DNA of 56,530 nucleotides from a virus. The stretch covers positions 1-56,530 of IMG/VR virus record IMGVR_UViG_3300018077_000001. The stretch is one strand, 5' to 3'. Below the pieces are notes generated by a model. It worked only from the letters and a program-made list of their open reading frames with translations, searched no databases and was not told the DNA's origin. Below are positions 2,858-51,517 of this stretch, piece by piece. A program made the translations under genes and the position numbers. Within the stretch, counting starts at the first letter, position 1, and each line of letters opens with the position of its first letter.

Positions 2858-3070
2858 TCAGCCGGCGACCTTCAATGCCTTGCTGATCTCAGCCTTGGCC
2901 GTCGCCGGAATCTTCTGCCCGGTCTGCTTCATCAGCAACCACAGCGCGGCCCGTTTCAGATCGCTCTGAGTGCAGGCCCCTTGGCGGGATGCCGAACCGA
3001 GCCATGTGTGCTGATCGGGATGCAGCCCATCCGGAAGCAGCTTTGCTTCGTACTGTCTTGGTCTAGCCAT
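2858..3070 (-). CDS. 70-residue hypothetical protein, probably from a leaderless mRNA
   Basis: A basic helical protein of unknown role (starts MARPRQYEAK), possibly DNA-binding. The -10 box of its promoter ends 7 bases before the ATG, so transcription probably starts at or next to the start codon. It is followed by a strong terminator, making it a single-gene unit. Confidence 0.72.
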   Translation of the reverse strand: MARPRQYEAKLLPDGLHPDQHTWLGSASRQGACTQSDLKRAALWLLMKQTGQKIPATAKAEISKALKVAG

Positions 3071-3076
3071 ATCCTA

Positions 3077-3106
3077 AGAATAGCACAAACGGGGTACGAT
3101 TGTCAA
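3077..3106 (-). promoter_or_regulatory. promoter with the ATTACTCA upstream element
   Basis: Minus strand: TTGACA (3106-3101), 18-bp spacer, TATTCT (3082-3077). The -35 box contains the TGA stop of the gene at 3103-3318. It drives only the 70-residue gene downstream. Confidence 0.78.
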
Positions 3107-11753: not shown

Positions 11754-11957
11754 TCAGCTAACGCTGACCCACTTCATGCACGTCTGGAGCAGGTGATCGT
11801 AGTCACCGCCCGTCGCCTCCGAAAAGAAGGCACTGATCTCCGCGGCCGGGACATGGGCATGCTTCATCGCCCGCTGCACCGTTCCGAGGACGGCGAAGGC
11901 ATTTCCATCGCCTCCCACCAATTCAACTTCGATCTCCGGATACTTCGGTTCGCTCAT
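11754..11957 (-). CDS. conserved phage/bacterial small protein
   Basis: 67 residues. VELVGGDGNAFAVLGTVQRA followed by EISAFFSEATGGDYDHLLQT is a pattern seen widely in phages and bacteria in short proteins of unknown role. It is the first gene behind the promoter at 12014, with a conserved GGATGAAAGGAGAT leader. Confidence 0.78.
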   Translation of the reverse strand: MSEPKYPEIEVELVGGDGNAFAVLGTVQRAMKHAHVPAAEISAFFSEATGGDYDHLLQTCMKWVSVS

Positions 11958-11985
11958 CGGTCCTATCTCCTTTCATCCTAGGATA

Positions 11986-12014
11986 AGCCTAGCAGGTTGG
12001 CCGGGGTTTGTCAA
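11986..12014 (-). promoter_or_regulatory. sigma70-type promoter of the conserved phage family
   Basis: Minus strand: TTGACA (12014-12009), 17-bp spacer, TAGGCT (11991-11986), with ATTACTCA upstream. The leader contains the palindrome ATCCTAGGAT before AAAGGAGAT. Confidence 0.8.
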
Positions 12015-12107
12015 TGAGTAATGTAATGGTAGGAGCTTGGGGCGATTTGGGGATGCTAAGGGTCGTCGGGAGCTGGTAGAAAAAGGTCTAAATGGGGCCT
12101 TTGCGGG

Positions 12108-14076: not shown

Positions 14077-15255
14077 TCACAGATCGAACCACTTCAGTAT
14101 ACGGCGATCACTGTCCACAATCACTACCCGCACGTCGGTATCAAGCAACCCCACCATCCGGTCGGGCGTGAGCACGGTCAGTAGCGTCTCCTCGACCCCA
14201 ATCGGCACGCCGACGACAGGAGCGACGATCTGGACTAAGAACTGCCGCGGCTCGACCGGATACGGACGCCCTCGCAGCATGTCGGGGTACGTCGGCTCCC
14301 AAGCCAGCGGCGGCACGGGCGCGGGGACGGGGATAACGAACGTGCCAAAGAAAGCAGTCTGCTCATAGGTCAGATAAGTCCGGGCGGCAATCCGATCGGG
14401 AAACTGGACGGAAACTGTTGGTGTGGGCGTGAACCCCGACCAAACGAACGCCGGTCTGAGCGCAGCACCAAGCACGCGACGGATGAACAGATAATTCGGG
14501 TACTCCGGCTCCCAACCAAGAGGCGGAACGGGCAGATTCGGAAGCCCACCTGTCCAGAACAACGCCTGCTGCTCATCGGTCGGATAGATCCGCCGTTGGA
14601 GCCTGTCCGGGTAGACGACAGTGACCGGGTTGACCGGCGCGGCCGGTGCGGGCGTAAACCCTGACCAGAACAGCTCTTGCTGATCAACGATCGACTTCCG
14701 GCTGTCAATCTTGACCGGATACTCAGGCTCCCAGCCGAGAGGCGGGACCGGTAGGTTGGGAAGCCCCGCAGTCCAGAACTCTGCCTGTTGATCGGCGGTC
14801 GGGTACGTGGGCCGAACCAGCCTAGACGGGTATTCCGGCTCCCATGAGAGAGGTGGAATGGGGAGGTTCGGCAGACCCGGAACCCAAAACTCGGCGGCCT
14901 GCTCACTGGCTAGGTACTGCGGTCGAACAAGCCGGGCCGGGTACTCGGGTTCCCAAGACAGCGGCGGGATAGGAAGGTTCCCAAGACCCGGGACCCAAAA
15001 CTCCGCCTGCTGCTCCGCAGTCGGATACGTTGGGCGTGTGAGCCTGTCGGGATATTGAGATCCCCAAGACAGTTCTGGAACCGCGGGAGCGGCGGCTGGG
15101 GTGAAACTCGACCAGAAGAAGGCCGGGACGAGGGCGGCGTGAAGGATCTTGCGCGCGATCGTCTCGGGCCAGTAGCCCTGCCACGACGCGGAGGGGGGGA
15201 CCGCAGGAACCGGGAGCGGTTCAGCGTAGCCCTGATACTGCGTGGGTTTGGGCAT
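14077..15255 (-). CDS. repeat fibre protein with nine W-x3-YP...QQ-x-FW units
   Basis: 392 residues, mostly nine tandem units of about 36-39 residues from residue 25 to 350. Each starts with W-x3-YP (for example WEPEYPARLVRP), continues with about ten residues to QQ-x-x-FW, and ends with a Pro-rich turn (GLPNLPIPPLS). The DNA repeats are imperfect, so copies have diverged. The C-terminal 40 residues are a separate strand-rich cap. Single copies occur at the C-termini of the LamG-like protein at 15255 and the dockerin protein at 19890. Position among tail-tip genes suggests a virion fibre or surface-binding array. I do not know a named family. Confidence 0.75.
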   Translation of the reverse strand: MPKPTQYQGYAEPLPVPAVPPSASWQGYWPETIARKILHAALVPAFFWSSFTPAAAPAVPELSWGSQYPDRLTRPTYPTAEQQAEFWVPGLGNLPIPPLSWEPEYPARLVRPQYLASEQAAEFWVPGLPNLPIPPLSWEPEYPSRLVRPTYPTADQQAEFWTAGLPNLPVPPLGWEPEYPVKIDSRKSIVDQQELFWSGFTPAPAAPVNPVTVVYPDRLQRRIYPTDEQQALFWTGGLPNLPVPPLGWEPEYPNYLFIRRVLGAALRPAFVWSGFTPTPTVSVQFPDRIAARTYLTYEQTAFFGTFVIPVPAPVPPLAWEPTYPDMLRGRPYPVEPRQFLVQIVAPVVGVPIGVEETLLTVLTPDRMVGLLDTDVRVVIVDSDRRILKWFDL

Positions 15256-20197: not shown

Positions 20198-22408
20198 CTA
20201 ACCCAACAGCCTCTCGTCCACCAGCTCACGCTGAGCTAAGTACACATCGAGCGTGTTCGGCAACCCGACCGTGATGCTGCACAGCTGCTCTTGGTCAATG
20301 TACGTCGTCTTCGTCACCAAGAACACTAGGTCGTTGGTCTGAGCGTTCGGGTCGCGGATGAAGTTCCGCATCAGCAACCGCTTGCCGGCTCGGATCTCGG
20401 CGGCCGGAATACGCTCACGGCCTCTGCCATTCACGTACTCGATCACGTTGATTGGCGACCGGACGTTCCAGACAGCCTCCTTGTGCGCCTTCAAGAACCG
20501 TCTCCCGAAATTGACGGCACCGGTCTGACTGGCGAACCCGGCTGGCAATCGGTAGTGCCGCTGCCCGTACTTCAGAATGCTGGCATCGTCTTTCAGGTTT
20601 GCATCCACGTCCGGCGTCACGAAGGCCGGGAACCCTCGATCATCGCGGTACTCGACGATGATCCAATTCCAGACCGCGTTCTCGTCGGAGCCAATGAAAC
20701 CCTCCGCCAGCTGCAGCCCCGGATCGAGGTTCGGGTCGTCCAGCGACACTTCGTAGTCATAGCCTGCCGCCAGATCCGGGTACGGCTCCGCAAACATCTT
20801 CGGCTTCTGATCGCTCGCCAAGTGGGACCCCAAGATCCCGACTGCCCACCGTCGCTGCGTGCTGTCTCCATACGAAGCAGCCTCGATCAGCATGTCCGCG
20901 ATCGTCGCGTACCGCTCGTTGATAAACGGCTTCAGGCTCAGCGTGTTGCTCTGAATCAGGTCTTCGTCCGAGCTGAGGTCTGCCAGTTCCCCACGCATGT
21001 CCCTGACTATCTCGGTCAGGTTGACCGTTCCATAGCCACCTGTCGGCGTGTGGTTCATTCTGGCATACACGGTAATCAGAAACAACTTCGACCAAATGTT
21101 CGCCGCGGCCGGCGAGGTCTGCGCCACCGAGGAGGTCAGAAAGAAGTCGATCCCCGGTGTGCCCGGCGCTGGGCTGATGCTCACTCCCGTTTCGGTGCCG
21201 GTCGTGCTTCTCGACCACAACGAGGTTTCCAGCGCATCGGCCGTCTGCAGCTTCGTCGTCCACGACTGCGCCCCCTCGTTGAAATCGGCGTCAAACTCCA
21301 TCCGGGCCATTTCTTCACCGGGCGGCTCCAGATACCGAATGCGAATCCGGTCGTTCATTCCCCAGTTCACCCCGGCCTGCGGCATGATCTGGAGTAGATT
21401 ACGGTTGTTCTCGGTGTCAAACCGCGTGATGTTGACTGTATCCACCACCTCATCTATGCCACTCTTTTCCTGCCACATATCGGGGCTGGTCCGCTTGTCA
21501 GCGTACAGCCGGCTGATGCGACGGGAGGCCAACAGGCCACCCCAGTAGCCGACCACCGCGATCTCAATTCCTTGCCCTGACGCCTGCAGTGCCCGTTCGA
21601 GGTCCGAGATAATCCCCTCGAACACGACTGCCTGACCATTCAAAATGCGGACCCGTTGCGCCCCTCGCAACAGCCATGAAGCCACGATCTCCCGAGCGAG
21701 AAACATCGTCGCTGTCAGATACAACCCGCCCGGATAGCCGGTCGAGAACTCGATGCCCTCAGCCCGCGGCAGCTCACCATTCACATCAAAGATCGGCAGC
21801 GCCAAGCTGCTCACCCGGAAATTGTCGAACCGGCTGTCAGTCACCACGTTCCACTGCCAGAGGCCGAACCGCACCGCCGTTGGATTGAACGCAGCACTGT
21901 TCCACTCGATCTGCTTGACCCCATCCACGTACACCGAGATCAGCGTGGCGATGCACGTCACCTTCAGCTTGTAGGTCGTGCTCGGTGCCACCACAAAGGT
22001 TCGGGTAACTTTGTCCGTACGAACTCCTGCGCTGATCTCGGTGATCCGCACAATGTCGGCTGCGCTGCCCAGAAAGCATTCGATCCCCGTGTCGTTCGCT
22101 GACGACCGCACGAACAGTCCGCCGAATGTATCCGCTCCAGCCCCCATCGTGACATCCGCCTCGACAACCACGTCGCTTTTGCCTGCGTCGATGCTGATGT
22201 TATTCTGCGAACCGCCGCCCGAAAGTAGCCGGGCCTGATTGCCGAGCAACTCAAAGACCGAGACACCAGCGTTTCCCCACGCATTCGACCCCGGCCTCTT
22301 ATCCGGCACGTGGCTGGGCAATGTCGTGGCGTCCACACCGGTAAAGGTGTCAAGCACCAGCAGCGTGTCACCCGGGAACGCCTCCACCCGTAGGTCATTC
22401 TTCCGCAC
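20198..22408 (-). CDS. minor tail / tail-tip hub protein
   Basis: 736 residues (GTG start right after the upstream stop). A concanavalin-like domain lies at about 15-205, ending with the strand pattern YVDGVKQIEW and FDNFRV. Then comes a hub-like region (about 215-320: REIVASWLLRGAQRVRILN) similar to tail-tip Gp37/hub proteins, with a C-terminal region rich in strands (about 560-736). It follows the Dit-like gene, the expected order for siphovirus tail tips. The lectin-like insertion at the N-terminus could bind host sugar. Confidence 0.72.
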   Translation of the reverse strand: MRKNDLRVEAFPGDTLLVLDTFTGVDATTLPSHVPDKRPGSNAWGNAGVSVFELLGNQARLLSGGGSQNNISIDAGKSDVVVEADVTMGAGADTFGGLFVRSSANDTGIECFLGSAADIVRITEISAGVRTDKVTRTFVVAPSTTYKLKVTCIATLISVYVDGVKQIEWNSAAFNPTAVRFGLWQWNVVTDSRFDNFRVSSLALPIFDVNGELPRAEGIEFSTGYPGGLYLTATMFLAREIVASWLLRGAQRVRILNGQAVVFEGIISDLERALQASGQGIEIAVVGYWGGLLASRRISRLYADKRTSPDMWQEKSGIDEVVDTVNITRFDTENNRNLLQIMPQAGVNWGMNDRIRIRYLEPPGEEMARMEFDADFNEGAQSWTTKLQTADALETSLWSRSTTGTETGVSISPAPGTPGIDFFLTSSVAQTSPAAANIWSKLFLITVYARMNHTPTGGYGTVNLTEIVRDMRGELADLSSDEDLIQSNTLSLKPFINERYATIADMLIEAASYGDSTQRRWAVGILGSHLASDQKPKMFAEPYPDLAAGYDYEVSLDDPNLDPGLQLAEGFIGSDENAVWNWIIVEYRDDRGFPAFVTPDVDANLKDDASILKYGQRHYRLPAGFASQTGAVNFGRRFLKAHKEAVWNVRSPINVIEYVNGRGRERIPAAEIRAGKRLLMRNFIRDPNAQTNDLVFLVTKTTYIDQEQLCSITVGLPNTLDVYLAQRELVDERLLG

Positions 22409-30842: not shown

Positions 30843-31820
30843 CTAGATGCCCGTGGCGTGAACGATCCCGCTCTTGCCCGCCGCGTCCGACTTGACCCGC
30901 GGCACCATTGCGGCCATGACCTTGAATCGACCGACCATGCCGCCCATTTCGTTCCACTCGACGGTCACGATTTGCTGAGCGATCGCCAGATCAACCACGT
31001 CGCTTTGCAGCGAGCACAGGACGGCGGCCCCAGCCGCCAACCGATCGGAGGGCTTGAAGAAGCTCAGCATCGGCAGGTTTTCCAACACCCGGCGAATACC
31101 GCTCTGGCCCGAGCCATCGGTATGCACGGCACGCGCCTCGCCGTACTGCGTGCGGGCCACGTACAACCCGTACGGACCAAAGTACCCGTCCGCCTCGGCC
31201 TTCGAGATCATGCCGTTCACGTCGAGGTACACGTTGGTCAACGTGCCCCAGTCGGCTCCCGTGTGCAGGTTTCGATCGGGATGGTTGGTGAAGCCGTACA
31301 CCGTGTAACCACCGGTCGTGATGGCAACCCCATTCACCACCATGTCTTCCAGCGCGTCTCGCACCTTCCGGGCTGCGACCTGCGCCGAGGTCGTGTCGAG
31401 GCTGTCACCCAACCGCCGCGAGGCTTCGAGCCGCCGAATGTTGATCCGGTAATCCTTGTGCGTGATGGGCACCGGAACACCGGTCAGCGTGAACCCCGGC
31501 GTATCTTCCTCGCCGCCAGTTTCGCCACCCATATCGACGTTCGCCGCACTCATGTCCTGCAACTTCTCGAACTCGCTGATCAGCGTGCCCAAGCCGCCGA
31601 GCGGGTGCGTCAGGCCGGCCGCCTGAAGATCCGCGATGACGTTCAGCTGCTCACGGGCGACGTCGATCACCGCCGTGTCCAGCTCTTTCCACTCGTCCTT
31701 GCGAAGCAGCGCGTTGGTCCGAATCGAGGCAACCTTCAAGCCGCCAGCAAGAAACCGCGCAGGCGCTCCCCCGAAAAACGAGGCTGCCTGCGTCACCAAT
31801 GCGTTCGGATTCTGTGCCAT
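30843..31820 (-). CDS. major capsid protein, encapsulin-type HK97 fold
   Basis: 325 residues. It contains TNALLRKDEWKELDTAVIDV (about 35-54), PVPITHKDYRINIRRLEASR (about 116-135) and the C-terminal VEWNEMGGMVGRFKVMAAMV. These match encapsulin/linocin-like capsid proteins in order and spacing. The fold builds the icosahedral shell, and the family is shared with bacterial encapsulin nanocompartments. No delta-domain gene is separate; scaffolding is likely supplied by the protease fusion upstream. Confidence 0.85.
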   Translation of the reverse strand: MAQNPNALVTQAASFFGGAPARFLAGGLKVASIRTNALLRKDEWKELDTAVIDVAREQLNVIADLQAAGLTHPLGGLGTLISEFEKLQDMSAANVDMGGETGGEEDTPGFTLTGVPVPITHKDYRINIRRLEASRRLGDSLDTTSAQVAARKVRDALEDMVVNGVAITTGGYTVYGFTNHPDRNLHTGADWGTLTNVYLDVNGMISKAEADGYFGPYGLYVARTQYGEARAVHTDGSGQSGIRRVLENLPMLSFFKPSDRLAAGAAVLCSLQSDVVDLAIAQQIVTVEWNEMGGMVGRFKVMAAMVPRVKSDAAGKSGIVHATGI

Positions 31821-31850: not shown

Positions 31851-32261
31851 TCAGGCGATACGGACCCGAGTCCGCTCAGCCGACCCACCCACCGTCTTCG
31901 CCTCTTCCGAATACGCGATGATCCTGCCGGTGGTAAAGATCTCCAAGTTCCCAGACCCACCCGACTGCAACGCGGTCCCAACCACCAGTACCGCGGCAGC
32001 CTCGACCCACGCGTTGATCAACGCACCCACGCTGGGAAAAACGAAACGCACCCGGTCGCCCGAGGCATACGCGTCGAGAATACCCTTGCCTTCGTCCGAA
32101 TTCTCGACCGCGAACATGATCGGGGCCGATGTGTCCGCCGCGGTTGCGTTGACCACGACGTTTGTAGTGCTGTAGTCAATCAGATGCCCCGGCGTGATCG
32201 CGCCTCCAGCTGGCCGCTCTGCGTAGAGCACATCACCCGCCAAAACCACAACGTTTGCCAT
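31851..32261 (-). CDS. capsid decoration/stabilisation protein
   Basis: 136 residues of beta strands starting MANVVVLAGDVLYAERP. This position between protease and capsid gene with a DUF2190-like beta layout is typical of head decoration or capsid-cement proteins. Low charge, Ala/Val-rich. Confidence 0.78.
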   Translation of the reverse strand: MANVVVLAGDVLYAERPAGGAITPGHLIDYSTTNVVVNATAADTSAPIMFAVENSDEGKGILDAYASGDRVRFVFPSVGALINAWVEAAAVLVVGTALQSGGSGNLEIFTTGRIIAYSEEAKTVGGSAERTRVRIA

Positions 32262-32287: not shown

Positions 32288-33757
32288 TTAGCCCGCGCCG
32301 TCGTCTCTCCAACCGCGCTTCACGAAATCCATCTTCGGCGGTTCATTCTCGTCAACCTTCGGCGCGCGCGGGAACGTCCGACCGACGAAGTACGACGGGG
32401 CCAGCGATCGGGTCAACTTCTCCAGATGCTGCACCGTCATTCCCTTCAGCTCATCGTCGGTGAACTCGTTCCCCGTGCTGGCCTTGATCGCCACGATGAA
32501 CTCCGCCTTGGCCGCGTCTTCCTCGGCCTTCTGATTGGCCGACATGCCGGCAACGGCGGTTCCAATTCCCTCCAGCTTGGTCGCAAACGGCACAAACCAA
32601 GCGGGCACAGCCTCCAGCTCTTTCTTCTTCCGATCGGCCTCCTCTGCGGCCGCCTTCACGTCCGCCGCGGTCTTAGCGTCAGCCTCCGCCTTCAGCTTGG
32701 CCGCATCCGCGTCGGCCTTGATCTTGACCTCGGCTTCTGCCTTCTGCCGAGCGGCCTTCGCCTCTGGCGTTTCATCATCTTCGGGAGCCGCCAGACTTGC
32801 ATCGAGCGCCTGAAGGTCCTTGATCTCCCAAGCCTCCAGCGTCGCCGGCTCAAACTTGCACCGCTTGTTGGCGACGAGCTTCGCAATCAACTCTTTCTTT
32901 TCCACTGCTTTGCCTCCTATGGCAGCGTTGGCGATGAATTCGCCCAACGTCTCAAACGCCTTCACGATTTCCTTGCCATTCACACTGCTGCCCTCCTCTC
33001 GATCTTCATTCGTTCGTGGGATTCCGCACCCGTCCTTCCAAGAACACGCTCCCTCCTCATCCAGCAAGATCGCGGCGTGGTCTGGCCGAATGTTCCGCAC
33101 AATCCCCGAGAACTCCTTGCCCTCAAACTCGCCGCTCTCATCTTCGAGGTCAGAGAAATACGCGGCCGACACGTCGATTTGCTGTCCACCATGCAGTCGA
33201 TCCACCACCTCCTGAGCATCGCCGCCCATGACGGTCACGCGGTTCAGGTCGATCCACGCCTCCGCCCTCAGTCGCTTCCCATTGAAATCGGCGTTGTACA
33301 GACGACCGATCGTGAACTGTGCCTCGTTCTCAGGATCGTTGGCGCTGACATCATGGCCGTTCTTCTGCGGATGGCCGAGCGTGACCGGTATCCCATCCCA
33401 CGTCTCGACGTAGCGGCCAATCTCTTTCGCCGGCACTAGCAGATCATTCAGCACTCCCTCACGGATCAGCACCAGCGGGACCACCAGCCACTCCCGTCCC
33501 AAGTGCTTCACCTGCTGGAACTGTGCGGTCTGCTCAACCGCGAAACGCTGTGTCTTCATCTGCGACACAACGCCGTTGGCATTCTGAAACGCGAACCCCT
33601 CACACTTGTTGGTGTTCGGACTGGTAATCCGCGTGTCGCCCGCCATGCACCGGCTGAACGCGCTGTTCCAAACCGACACCCACTGCCGACGCTGACGCTC
33701 AGGCAGGCGCTTGACATTTTCGGGCAGGCTCGGGTCGTTAGGTCCGCTGAATGGCAT
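32288..33757 (-). CDS. ChaB-like + DUF2213 capsid protease/scaffold fusion
   Basis: 489 residues in three parts. A ChaB-like N-terminus (1-40: SLPENVKRLPERQRRQWVSV). A DUF2213-type maturation protease (about 65-260), with REWLVVPLVLIREGVLND, GIPVTLGHPQ, and DHAAILLDEEGACS at its end. A long coiled-coil scaffold (about 300-440, alternating Ala/Lys/Glu), then a C-terminal tail ending KRGWRDD. In such phages the protein directs shell assembly and cuts itself out. No Shine-Dalgarno is visible; the start lies 6 bases after a T7 terminator tract. The N-terminal ChaB-like domain is a curious addition. Confidence 0.85.
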   Translation of the reverse strand: MPFSGPNDPSLPENVKRLPERQRRQWVSVWNSAFSRCMAGDTRITSPNTNKCEGFAFQNANGVVSQMKTQRFAVEQTAQFQQVKHLGREWLVVPLVLIREGVLNDLLVPAKEIGRYVETWDGIPVTLGHPQKNGHDVSANDPENEAQFTIGRLYNADFNGKRLRAEAWIDLNRVTVMGGDAQEVVDRLHGGQQIDVSAAYFSDLEDESGEFEGKEFSGIVRNIRPDHAAILLDEEGACSWKDGCGIPRTNEDREEGSSVNGKEIVKAFETLGEFIANAAIGGKAVEKKELIAKLVANKRCKFEPATLEAWEIKDLQALDASLAAPEDDETPEAKAARQKAEAEVKIKADADAAKLKAEADAKTAADVKAAAEEADRKKKELEAVPAWFVPFATKLEGIGTAVAGMSANQKAEEDAAKAEFIVAIKASTGNEFTDDELKGMTVQHLEKLTRSLAPSYFVGRTFPRAPKVDENEPPKMDFVKRGWRDDGAG

Positions 33758-33762
33758 CTATC

Positions 33763-33792
33763 AAAAAAACAGCCACCGGGGTCACCGGTGGC
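33763..33792 (-). terminator. intrinsic terminator/attenuator before the capsid operon
   Basis: An 8-bp stem GCCACCGG-CCGGTGGC (33772-33779 with 33785-33792) followed on the minus strand by TG and seven Ts (33769-33763). It ends 6 bases before the ATG at 33757. Confidence 0.9.
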
Positions 33793-33836
33793 AATCTCCG
33801 GGTTGCATGCCTGTACTACAGGTGCAGCCTGAACGT
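33763..33836 (-). ncRNA. candidate small RNA or attenuator leader (about 70 nt)
   Basis: Starts just after the promoter at 33869-33841 and ends at the terminator T-tract. It includes the hairpin CCTGTAGTACAGG (33822-33810) and the terminator stem. It could be a free small RNA, or a leader whose terminator must be overcome to express the structural genes below. Confidence 0.45.
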
Positions 33837-33840
33837 GCAA

Positions 33841-33869
33841 CTAATAGCACATCTTCGGGATCATGTCAA
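33841..33869 (-). promoter_or_regulatory. late structural promoter (sigma70-type)
   Basis: Minus strand: TTGACA (33869-33864), 17-bp spacer, TATTAG (33846-33841). The -35 box contains the stop of the gene at 33866. GTTGCA/TGCAAC dyad halves (33802-33807 and 33836-33841) flank the start region and could be an operator. Confidence 0.72.
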
Positions 33870-34093
33870 CTCGTAATCAGTCCTCCCGGCCGAGTTTCTG
33901 CTCGGGAAAGCAGCGTCTCGAACGGCACCTTCGGCGGTGTGAACAACTTGAACTTGCCGCACACATGACAGTGACATCCACCCTGCCGAATCAGGAAACG
34001 GCCATCATCGACGTAGACCGTGCCATCGCGTTCGACGAGCTGGCCGAGCACTGCGCCGCACGCATCGCACTCAAACGGGATTGATCGTCTCAT
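33866..34093 (-). CDS. small zinc-ribbon protein
   Basis: 75 residues. FECDACGAVLGQL (C9-x2-C12) and GGCHCHVCGKFKLF (C40, C42, C45) give one ribbon with a beta hairpin between. The last codons lie in the late promoter. Unknown role in the head region. Confidence 0.75.
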   Translation of the reverse strand: MRRSIPFECDACGAVLGQLVERDGTVYVDDGRFLIRQGGCHCHVCGKFKLFTPPKVPFETLLSRAETRPGGLITS

Positions 34094-38766: not shown

Positions 38767-39519
38767 CTACGTGACCTTTTCGGTCGGGAGACTCCACACT
38801 CGATCGACGCGAACCTTCAGCCTCAGCGTCGTCTTCGTGCGGGTGAAATGCAGATACTTGCCCCACTTCTTCTTCAGATAGTCCAGCTCGAACTCCTCCC
38901 GCTTGCTGGAACGAACCACCGAGTTTCCCCCAATCCTACCCGTCCGATCGTGGACGAACGAGATCCGATTCTCGATCCAGACTACCCGATGCTTCATCAG
39001 CGTTTGCAAACAGTAGTCAATATCGGCCCTGAGCAACAGGTTCGGGTCGTAGCGGACAGTCCTTCCCACGATGCCAATAACCCCGCCCGTCCAGCTCGAC
39101 AGCAGGAACGGACTCTGCGGCCTGAACTTCCGAACGTCCCATGCCTGATTGAACCCGAACACAGCCGTACCCACGTCCGCGGCACATTGGGCGGCAGTTT
39201 CAACCACCAACCGAATGCTGCTGGTCAACGTGATCTTCCGATACATCAGCCCGGGGAGGCTCAACATGGCAGAAACGTCATCATCCACCATGCAGATCCG
39301 CTCGTCCTCGAAGTTGTCAAGAACCCATTGTCTCAGCGGGGCAATTCCCACCACATCGTCCGGATGGGTGATGATCTCAGACCCCGGACAGGCGGCCGCG
39401 TACGCCTTCGCTTCGCTCTCACCCACGCACAGCGTCGCGTCGGGAAAGAGTTTCAACGCCTTCTTCTTCACGAGGGCCTGACGCTCCCTCGAGACGATCA
39501 CTACCCGGACTTGGTTCAT
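38767..39519 (-). CDS. TAGT-like glycosyltransferase (DNA hypermodification candidate)
   Basis: 250 residues. The N-terminus RVVIVSRERQALVKKKALKL is followed by LCVGESEAKAYAAACPG, HPDDVVGIAPLRQWVLDN (about 52-69) and ICMVDDDVSAM (about 75-85). The DDD metal/sugar-nucleotide site and layout fit TET-associated glycosyltransferases, which add sugar to modified bases in phage DNA. The gene overlaps the ParB-domain gene by four bases and sits next to terminase, the usual place. No TET oxygenase or cytosine methyltransferase is evident, so the substrate is uncertain. Confidence 0.65.
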   Translation of the reverse strand: MNQVRVVIVSRERQALVKKKALKLFPDATLCVGESEAKAYAAACPGSEIITHPDDVVGIAPLRQWVLDNFEDERICMVDDDVSAMLSLPGLMYRKITLTSSIRLVVETAAQCAADVGTAVFGFNQAWDVRKFRPQSPFLLSSWTGGVIGIVGRTVRYDPNLLLRADIDYCLQTLMKHRVVWIENRISFVHDRTGRIGGNSVVRSSKREEFELDYLKKKWGKYLHFTRTKTTLRLKVRVDRVWSLPTEKVT

Positions 39520-51112: not shown

Positions 51113-51388
51113 TCACGCCTCCTGCTCGACAACGGCTACCAAGAAACTGTCTTGCGGCCATGCTCGGTAATGATCCGCCGTTTCCCGCAACGTCGCCCTA
51201 ACCCCCGCGTGCAGCAACGCCTCAACCACCTTGTCCCCCCAACTCTGAGCCGTGGCCCCGAACCGGTAAAAGTAGCCCCGCTTGACGCTCACCATTCCGT
51301 CCTTGTGGCAAACCACCTGATCAGGGATCGCCTCCGTCGTGCTGTCCAACGCTTTCTTCACTGCCTTCTGGAACGCTGTGTGGGCCAT
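51113..51388 (-). CDS. 91-residue hypothetical protein, first gene of its unit
   Basis: The promoter at 51444 and AAAGGAGAT site put the start at 51388 (MAHTAFQKAVKKALDSTTEA), although the frame is open upstream. Possible strands after residue 30. Unknown family. Confidence 0.72.
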   Translation of the reverse strand: MAHTAFQKAVKKALDSTTEAIPDQVVCHKDGMVSVKRGYFYRFGATAQSWGDKVVEALLHAGVRATLRETADHYRAWPQDSFLVAVVEQEA

Positions 51389-51415
51389 CTTCCCATCTCC
51401 TTTCATCCTGCCATA

Positions 51416-51444
51416 AGCATAGCAGGTTGGCGGGGGTTTGTCAA
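51416..51444 (-). promoter_or_regulatory. sigma70-type promoter of the conserved phage family
   Basis: Minus strand: TTGACA (51444-51439), 17-bp spacer, TATGCT (51421-51416), with ATTACTCA upstream and an AGGATGAAAGGAGAT leader. It drives the long unit that ends at 41072. Confidence 0.87.
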
Positions 51445-51517
51445 TGAGTAATGGGGGGTTAGGAAAGGTGCCCCCATATAAGGAGCGTGGCGGACCTTTA
51501 TTGGCCTTTTGGGGCGT

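Follow-up and report, generated by a model that had tools for sequence, protein, structure and literature searches.

Gene order and the unit ahead of the head genes

The DNA analyzed here, hereafter the window, is a 56,530-base IMG/VR virus record with a GC content of 60%. It carries a 123-nt terminal direct repeat and thus probably represents a complete, circularly closed genome. A rough gene caller places 104 of its 105 genes on the minus strand. On this strand, the genes for the terminase, portal and MuF proteins (38443-34289) are followed by a 75-codon ORF and then by a short unit comprising a putative promoter, a leader and a candidate intrinsic terminator (33869-33763). The 3' side of this unit is occupied by the genes for the head protease, the decoration protein and the major capsid protein, and then by the tail block. 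The features of the locus are as follows:

33866..34093, minus strand: 75-codon ORF ahead of the unit; no family match, weak coding score
33864..33869, minus strand: -35 hexamer TTGACA, with the stop codon of the 75-codon ORF inside it
33841..33849, minus strand: extended -10 element, TGC plus TATTAG (33846-33841), with G rather than T as last -10 base
33763..33834, minus strand: predicted leader RNA of ~72 nt, its start site placed 7 nt past the -10 element
33801..33829, minus strand: leader hairpin 1 (GGCTGCACCTGTAGTACAGGCATGCAACC), a predicted fold
33782..33808, minus strand: possible 8-codon ORF, ATG to TGA, with its stop in the terminator loop and no good Shine-Dalgarno (SD) sequence
33763..33792, minus strand: candidate intrinsic terminator, stem 33792-33772 and U7 33769-33763
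32288..33757, minus strand: head maturation protease (DUF2213), the first gene past the terminator, without an SD sequence
31851..32261, minus strand: head decoration protein
30843..31820, minus strand: major capsid protein (DUF6260 / virion structural)

No near DNA relatives of the window were found among the phages searched. In our reading, the Cys pattern of the 75-codon ORF (33866-34093) resembles a zinc ribbon. Elsewhere in the window, a gene for a TET-associated glycosyltransferase-like protein (PF20691, 1.9e-10; 38767-39519, minus strand) adjoins a ParB-like gene, a neighborhood that possibly points to DNA base modification. A PC4-like domain (transcription coactivator p15, PF02229, E 4e-12) is encoded at 1034-1177 on the minus strand and was not found in 15 related records. 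Diverged 111-nt direct repeats at 14285-15054 lie within a 392-codon ORF (14077-15255), which perhaps encodes a repetitive fibre-like protein.

A preliminary description of this DNA had noted a TTGACA-17-TATTAG promoter over the preceding stop codon, and all its elements are in place: the TGA stop (33868-33866) of the 75-codon ORF sits within the -35 hexamer, and the 17-nt spacer ends in TGC. To call it a good promoter was slightly generous: the sites are present and above chance, but TATTAG matches the -10 consensus in only 4 of 6 positions, lacks the important last T and is thus a weak -10, which is also why our promoter scan omits this site. The pattern TTGACA-N12-16-TGCTAT occurs four times in the window as against 0.01 expected. 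The remaining three sites (2697, 3106 and 51444) are members of a promoter family characterized by TCATTGACA, and a leader, GGATGAAAGGAGAT, which includes an SD sequence, is common to five promoters of this family (2697, 40955, 51444, 54470 and one near 12000). In the 33869 promoter the family core is present, but both the TCA ahead of the -35 hexamer and this leader are missing, and it is thus of a different class. Over the stretch from the protease through the tail block, a single further sigma-70-like match of 10 of 12 positions exists on the same strand, at 21420; it is poor and intragenic. Both promoter and terminator calls follow an E. coli-type consensus, which may not be that of the host.

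A 72-nt promoter module containing TCATTGACA and TGCTA, with the shared SD leader, is repeated at 2635-2706, 11952-12023 and 51382-51453 (minus strand), preceding several operons, and related promoters occur at 3106, 9930, 40955 and 54470, suggesting a single regulon under a shared operator. A 70-codon gene at 2858-3106 (minus strand) has its ATG ~7 nt past the -10 element of a promoter of this family, so that its mRNA may be leaderless; this gene could encode the repressor of the regulon.

The predicted leader contains two hairpins, and its fold is more stable than those of shuffled sequences (z -2.58; 3 of 200 shuffles). The GC stem with seven Ts noted in the preliminary description is borne out as an 8-bp stem with seven GC pairs and a loop of 5, followed by U7, a length to be read with the errors that T-runs in metagenomic contigs may carry. 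Its distance from the promoter, given as about 70 nt, holds for the U-run and not for the stem, which begins 48 nt past the -10 element. A strict rule (seven or more Watson-Crick pairs in the stem, then T6 or more) recovers this one site in the window, and a site in 5 of 400 dinucleotide shuffles; a laxer scan shows no overall enrichment in the window (16 found versus 13.9 expected). When the 121-nt element was used as a DNA query, its terminator half alone drew matches, two of them in Vibrio phages (E 7e-4) and two in Xanthomonas plasmids (E 0.09), in sequence without an annotated feature; a Gordonia phage matched over a short segment (E 4). We set aside a shared element and take these matches as likeness between terminators.

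The U-run is followed by GATAG and the ATG (33757) of the protease, a gap of 5 bases. The first 66 codons score as coding in frame (+16.6 versus -20.3 and -27.0), and this ATG is therefore the likely start. The reported want of an SD sequence is upheld: the best anti-SD pairing is -4.9 kcal/mol versus a gene median of -7.65, with the best match, GGUGG, lying inside the hairpin, whereas an SD-like core (loose pattern) precedes 92 of the 104 minus-strand genes. Residues 1-66 of the protease (33560-33757, minus strand) form an N-terminal extension that is absent from seven aligned relatives, resembles by eye that of L121, L122 and L126, and has no Pfam match.

Recurrence of the unit at protease junctions

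Relatives were gathered through chained major-capsid-protein searches of viral contigs. Single queries with the protease, portal or protease N-terminus recovered no relatives in viral contigs, and a terminase query recovered one, whose locus gave no match to the portal, protease, decoration or capsid protein of the window. There were 239 usable loci (overlapping copies included), of which 35 had no protease match; the remaining 204 contained 74 same-junction copies and thus yielded 130 distinct junctions. Five of these, with less than 300 nt upstream, were dropped, leaving 125 and the window, i.e. 126 usable junctions. We called a terminator where a stem fold of -12 kcal/mol or lower and a T-rich tail lay between 200 nt before and 15 nt after the protease start, and a promoter where a score of at least 9.5 was reached within 185 nt ahead of the stem.

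By these rules, whose thresholds were set post hoc after a first look at some loci, a promoter and a terminator lie directly ahead of the protease in 21 of the 126 distinct junctions. These data strongly support the cis-acting gate implied when the locus was first described as an attenuator. The gate is not general, since by the same rules the terminator is present in 36 junctions and absent in 90. A first survey of eight relatives with 35-43% MCP identity had suggested that no relative has a terminator, which this wider set overturned. At control starts the pair is rare (decoration 0/82, capsid 1/133, portal 0/37 and MuF 0/41); because these starts mostly have short gaps, a second control counted the pairs in the rest of the 1.29 Mb covered by these loci, and the 92 found (48 on the plus and 44 on the minus strand) predict ~1.0 per 126 junctions. 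A promoter count within the promoter-terminator set would be circular and was left out. Junctions without a terminator are themselves promoter-rich, with a promoter in 13 of 86 versus 11 of 1720 random windows, a contrast that is flattered by the mostly coding nature of the latter. Thus, the site looks like a head-operon promoter in general, which is gated in some lineages.

Covariation in related phages had been proposed as a check: in L022 and L116 the inner stem is altered on both sides with pairing kept, and in L121 and L122 the upper stem has been exchanged. Most terminator junctions retain their U-tracts. A motif seen by eye, C/U-GGAA...ACC, lies ahead of the terminator in L022, L116, L026, L041, L048, L060 and L219, and loosely in the window, and is missing from the larger clade.

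A quick protease tree was built from 126 rows, and 54 of its 121 inner branches are open. On it, the pair-bearing rows, 27 in number (including L026, L121, L122, L126, L128 and L048, added by eye), require 11 changes, as against a mean of 24.9 for shuffled labels, none of 500 shuffles being as low. The pair is present in 13 of the 15 members of one group (SH-aLRT 92), in all four of another (86) and in all of the trio L121/L122/L126 (100). The row of the window is itself open, and the tree therefore does not show the origin of its unit.

The gap between the MuF and protease genes holds variable genes in many relatives and appears as a hotspot. Annotated examples are an endonuclease VII (L017 2929-3339) and a CxxC protein (L018 2955-3269); our own reading of the sequences adds, as candidates, HsdS-like and zinc ribbon (L022 1571-3423), SocA/Panacea-like (L026 2273-2716), Acb2-like (L032 3233-3490) and C39-peptidase-like (L012 5369-5722) proteins.

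Release of the terminator and competing explanations

Our best reading of the unit is an attenuated head-operon promoter that would be opened by a protein or be leaky by design. More specifically, we give about even chances to a head-operon promoter with a built-in termination gate that is most likely opened late by an antitermination protein. The sequence elements, their frequency above chance and their return at this place in diverse relatives are observations; promoter activity, termination at the stem, a need of the head operon for read-through and release by a protein are what we infer. RNA polymerase would start ~32 nt past the end of the preceding ORF, make a structured leader of ~72 nt and mostly stop at the terminator, 5 nt ahead of the protease ATG; the same terminator would also halt transcription coming from the terminase-portal-MuF side. 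Expression of the head and tail genes would then follow once polymerase gets beyond the gate, most likely at a late stage of infection. The earlier proposal that all structural genes come under this switch was too wide, as the terminase, portal and MuF genes lie upstream of it. A releasing protein would render polymerase termination-resistant in the manner of Q, AlpA or GafZ, but has no recognizable homolog in the window.

Three published systems resemble this arrangement. In phages lambda, 21 and 82, the late promoter PR' is followed by the terminator tR', on which the antiterminator Q acts (PMC6606751, PMC9371919); there too a promoter and then an intrinsic terminator lie ahead of the late operon, and no RNA switch is needed. 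In contrast, the window has neither a pause hexamer nor a match to Q, and its unit precedes the head protease, after the terminase and portal genes. In the PalpB-tB system of Pseudomonas aeruginosa, the terminator lies immediately upstream of alpB, thus likewise between the promoter and the first gene, and is released by AlpA (PMC7969949, PMC9371919), a protein without likeness to Q (PMC7969949). However, AlpA controls bacterial lysis genes, and its binding element is not recognizable in the window. Likewise, the Caulobacter gene transfer agent (GTA) cluster, which encodes a phage-like particle, is gated by a terminator near its start that is subject to antitermination by GafZ (PMC11150451). 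The GTA terminator consists of 150-bp repeats after the first gene, with a palindrome between the -35 and -10 elements, and the window has neither.

Searches for the components of such systems gave negative results. The Q family (PF06530, PF03589) was detected in none of 16 records including the window and in none of 61 window proteins, by a search that fast-evolving families may escape; a protein with the NusG N-terminal domain (PF02357; RfaH and LoaP type) was likewise found in none of the 16 records. The start of the predicted transcript shows no enrichment of a -10-like pause hexamer, either in the window (best score 2, p 0.723) or in 19 leaders combined (p 0.997), and a GafZ-type palindrome between the -35 and -10 elements was seen neither in the window nor in 19 promoters combined (p 0.9998). 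L185 and L169, in which the promoter is more than 100 nt from the stem, were excluded from both these tests and from the base-pairing test below. Antiterminators are small and fast-evolving. For this reason, and because AlpA is unlike Q, the results for Q, GafZ and NusG lower the chance of membership in these families and not that of the function.

The strongest competitor to protein-mediated release, one we consider somewhat unlikely, is a fixed partial attenuator, at which a constant fraction of polymerases would pass and set the level of head mRNA with no dedicated antiterminator. The failure to find an antiterminator family in the records and proteins searched speaks for it, as do the stem of the window (-15.3 kcal/mol) and the UG ahead of its U-run. 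It also has a precedent in the GraL leader of E. coli greA, where about two thirds of transcripts end at the leader terminator (PMC6829880). GraL is similarly a short promoter-leader-terminator unit directly ahead of a gene, and gives both a small RNA and partial read-through; unlike the unit in the window, it is the leader of a host gene and is autoregulated by GreA. Against it, the stems of many relatives are far stronger, down to -35.9 kcal/mol, which would be surprising in a terminator that only sets a mild ratio ahead of the abundantly expressed capsid genes.

A trans-acting small RNA gene of ~72 nt, merely sited before the protease, was the other possibility raised in the preliminary description, and we regard it as improbable. 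It would account for the unit having its own promoter and terminator and for the two stable hairpins, and in L122 and L126 the leader (90%) and the stem-loop (97%) are indeed better conserved than the flanking 150 nt on the upstream side (78%) and the 200 nt beyond (62%). However, the position of the unit is kept across distant phages and the sequence of the leader is not, which disfavors this explanation. Further, complementarity of the leader to the translation starts of the phage itself is at chance, with the best match equalled in 47 of 200 shuffles and the mean reached by 67 of 100, and there is no Rfam match in the window or in 11 relatives.

Still less probable is a terminator that does no more than shield the head operon from variable upstream genes, the promoter being incidental or otherwise used. 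Variable genes in the MuF-protease gap and the 15 of 36 terminator junctions that have no promoter by our rule would fit insulation, but the order is promoter and then terminator, and a promoter lies upstream of 23 of 39 junction terminators versus 92 of 1424 terminators elsewhere. We view as quite remote the idea that the hairpin serves chiefly in processing or translation of the protease mRNA, with termination secondary. The ATG follows the hairpin within ~17 nt or less and without an SD sequence in the window and in seven relatives (L185, L187, L190, L199, L043, L093 and L160), and in L183 and L184 the hairpin of the clade is present ahead of the protease without a U-tail, which hints at a role beyond termination. 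Against this, U-tracts are mostly kept, and several relatives (L026, L024 and L041) have a normal SD sequence after the terminator.

The base-pairing test asked if pairing of the upstream leader with the 5' terminator arm is better than that of shuffles, and six leaders chosen by eye were added to its set. A classical RNA switch, in which an upstream segment would sequester this arm as an antiterminator, is the least probable explanation by our estimate: candidates in L121 (p 0.047) and L048 (p 0.033), the former resembled by eye by L122 and L126, stand against p values of 0.894 for the window, 0.157 for 25 leaders combined, 0.565 for L122 and 0.518 for L126. Thus, the attenuator of the preliminary description gains support as a gate in cis but not as a base-pairing switch, and release in the window, if any, is more likely to be protein-mediated or simple leakiness. 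By eye, GCGGCCTCCAG...CTGAGCCGC in the leaders of L121, L122 and L126 could form a terminator-excluding hairpin. An alternative CCGG/CCGG pairing was dropped after the test against shuffles. For attenuation by a leader peptide, the window offers the possible 8-codon ORF with its stop in the terminator loop as a candidate; this ORF is not conserved in the leader of L022, in which by eye there is no ATG.

Implications for head-gene expression

Our literature searches of open papers found no description of a promoter-terminator unit at this site, the nearest published systems being PR'-tR' with Q, PalpB-tB with AlpA, the GTA cluster with GafZ, and GraL. Extending the attenuated promoter opened by a protein beyond the window, we tentatively propose that across a large group of tailed phages, most of them uncultivated, the head operon is gated by such a unit immediately ahead of the head protease and is opened late by an antiterminator of an unrecognized family, in genomes without a detectable antiterminator of the Q or NusG type, a proposal to which we give rather less than even chances. 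If true, capsid synthesis in a broad environmental phage group would hinge on one terminator at a fixed spot, and phage genes that raise read-through at a 110-bp cassette would offer a handle for new antiterminators. Terminator gating would then extend from the lambdoid late operons, AlpA and the gene transfer agent to the start of the DUF2213-type head operon.
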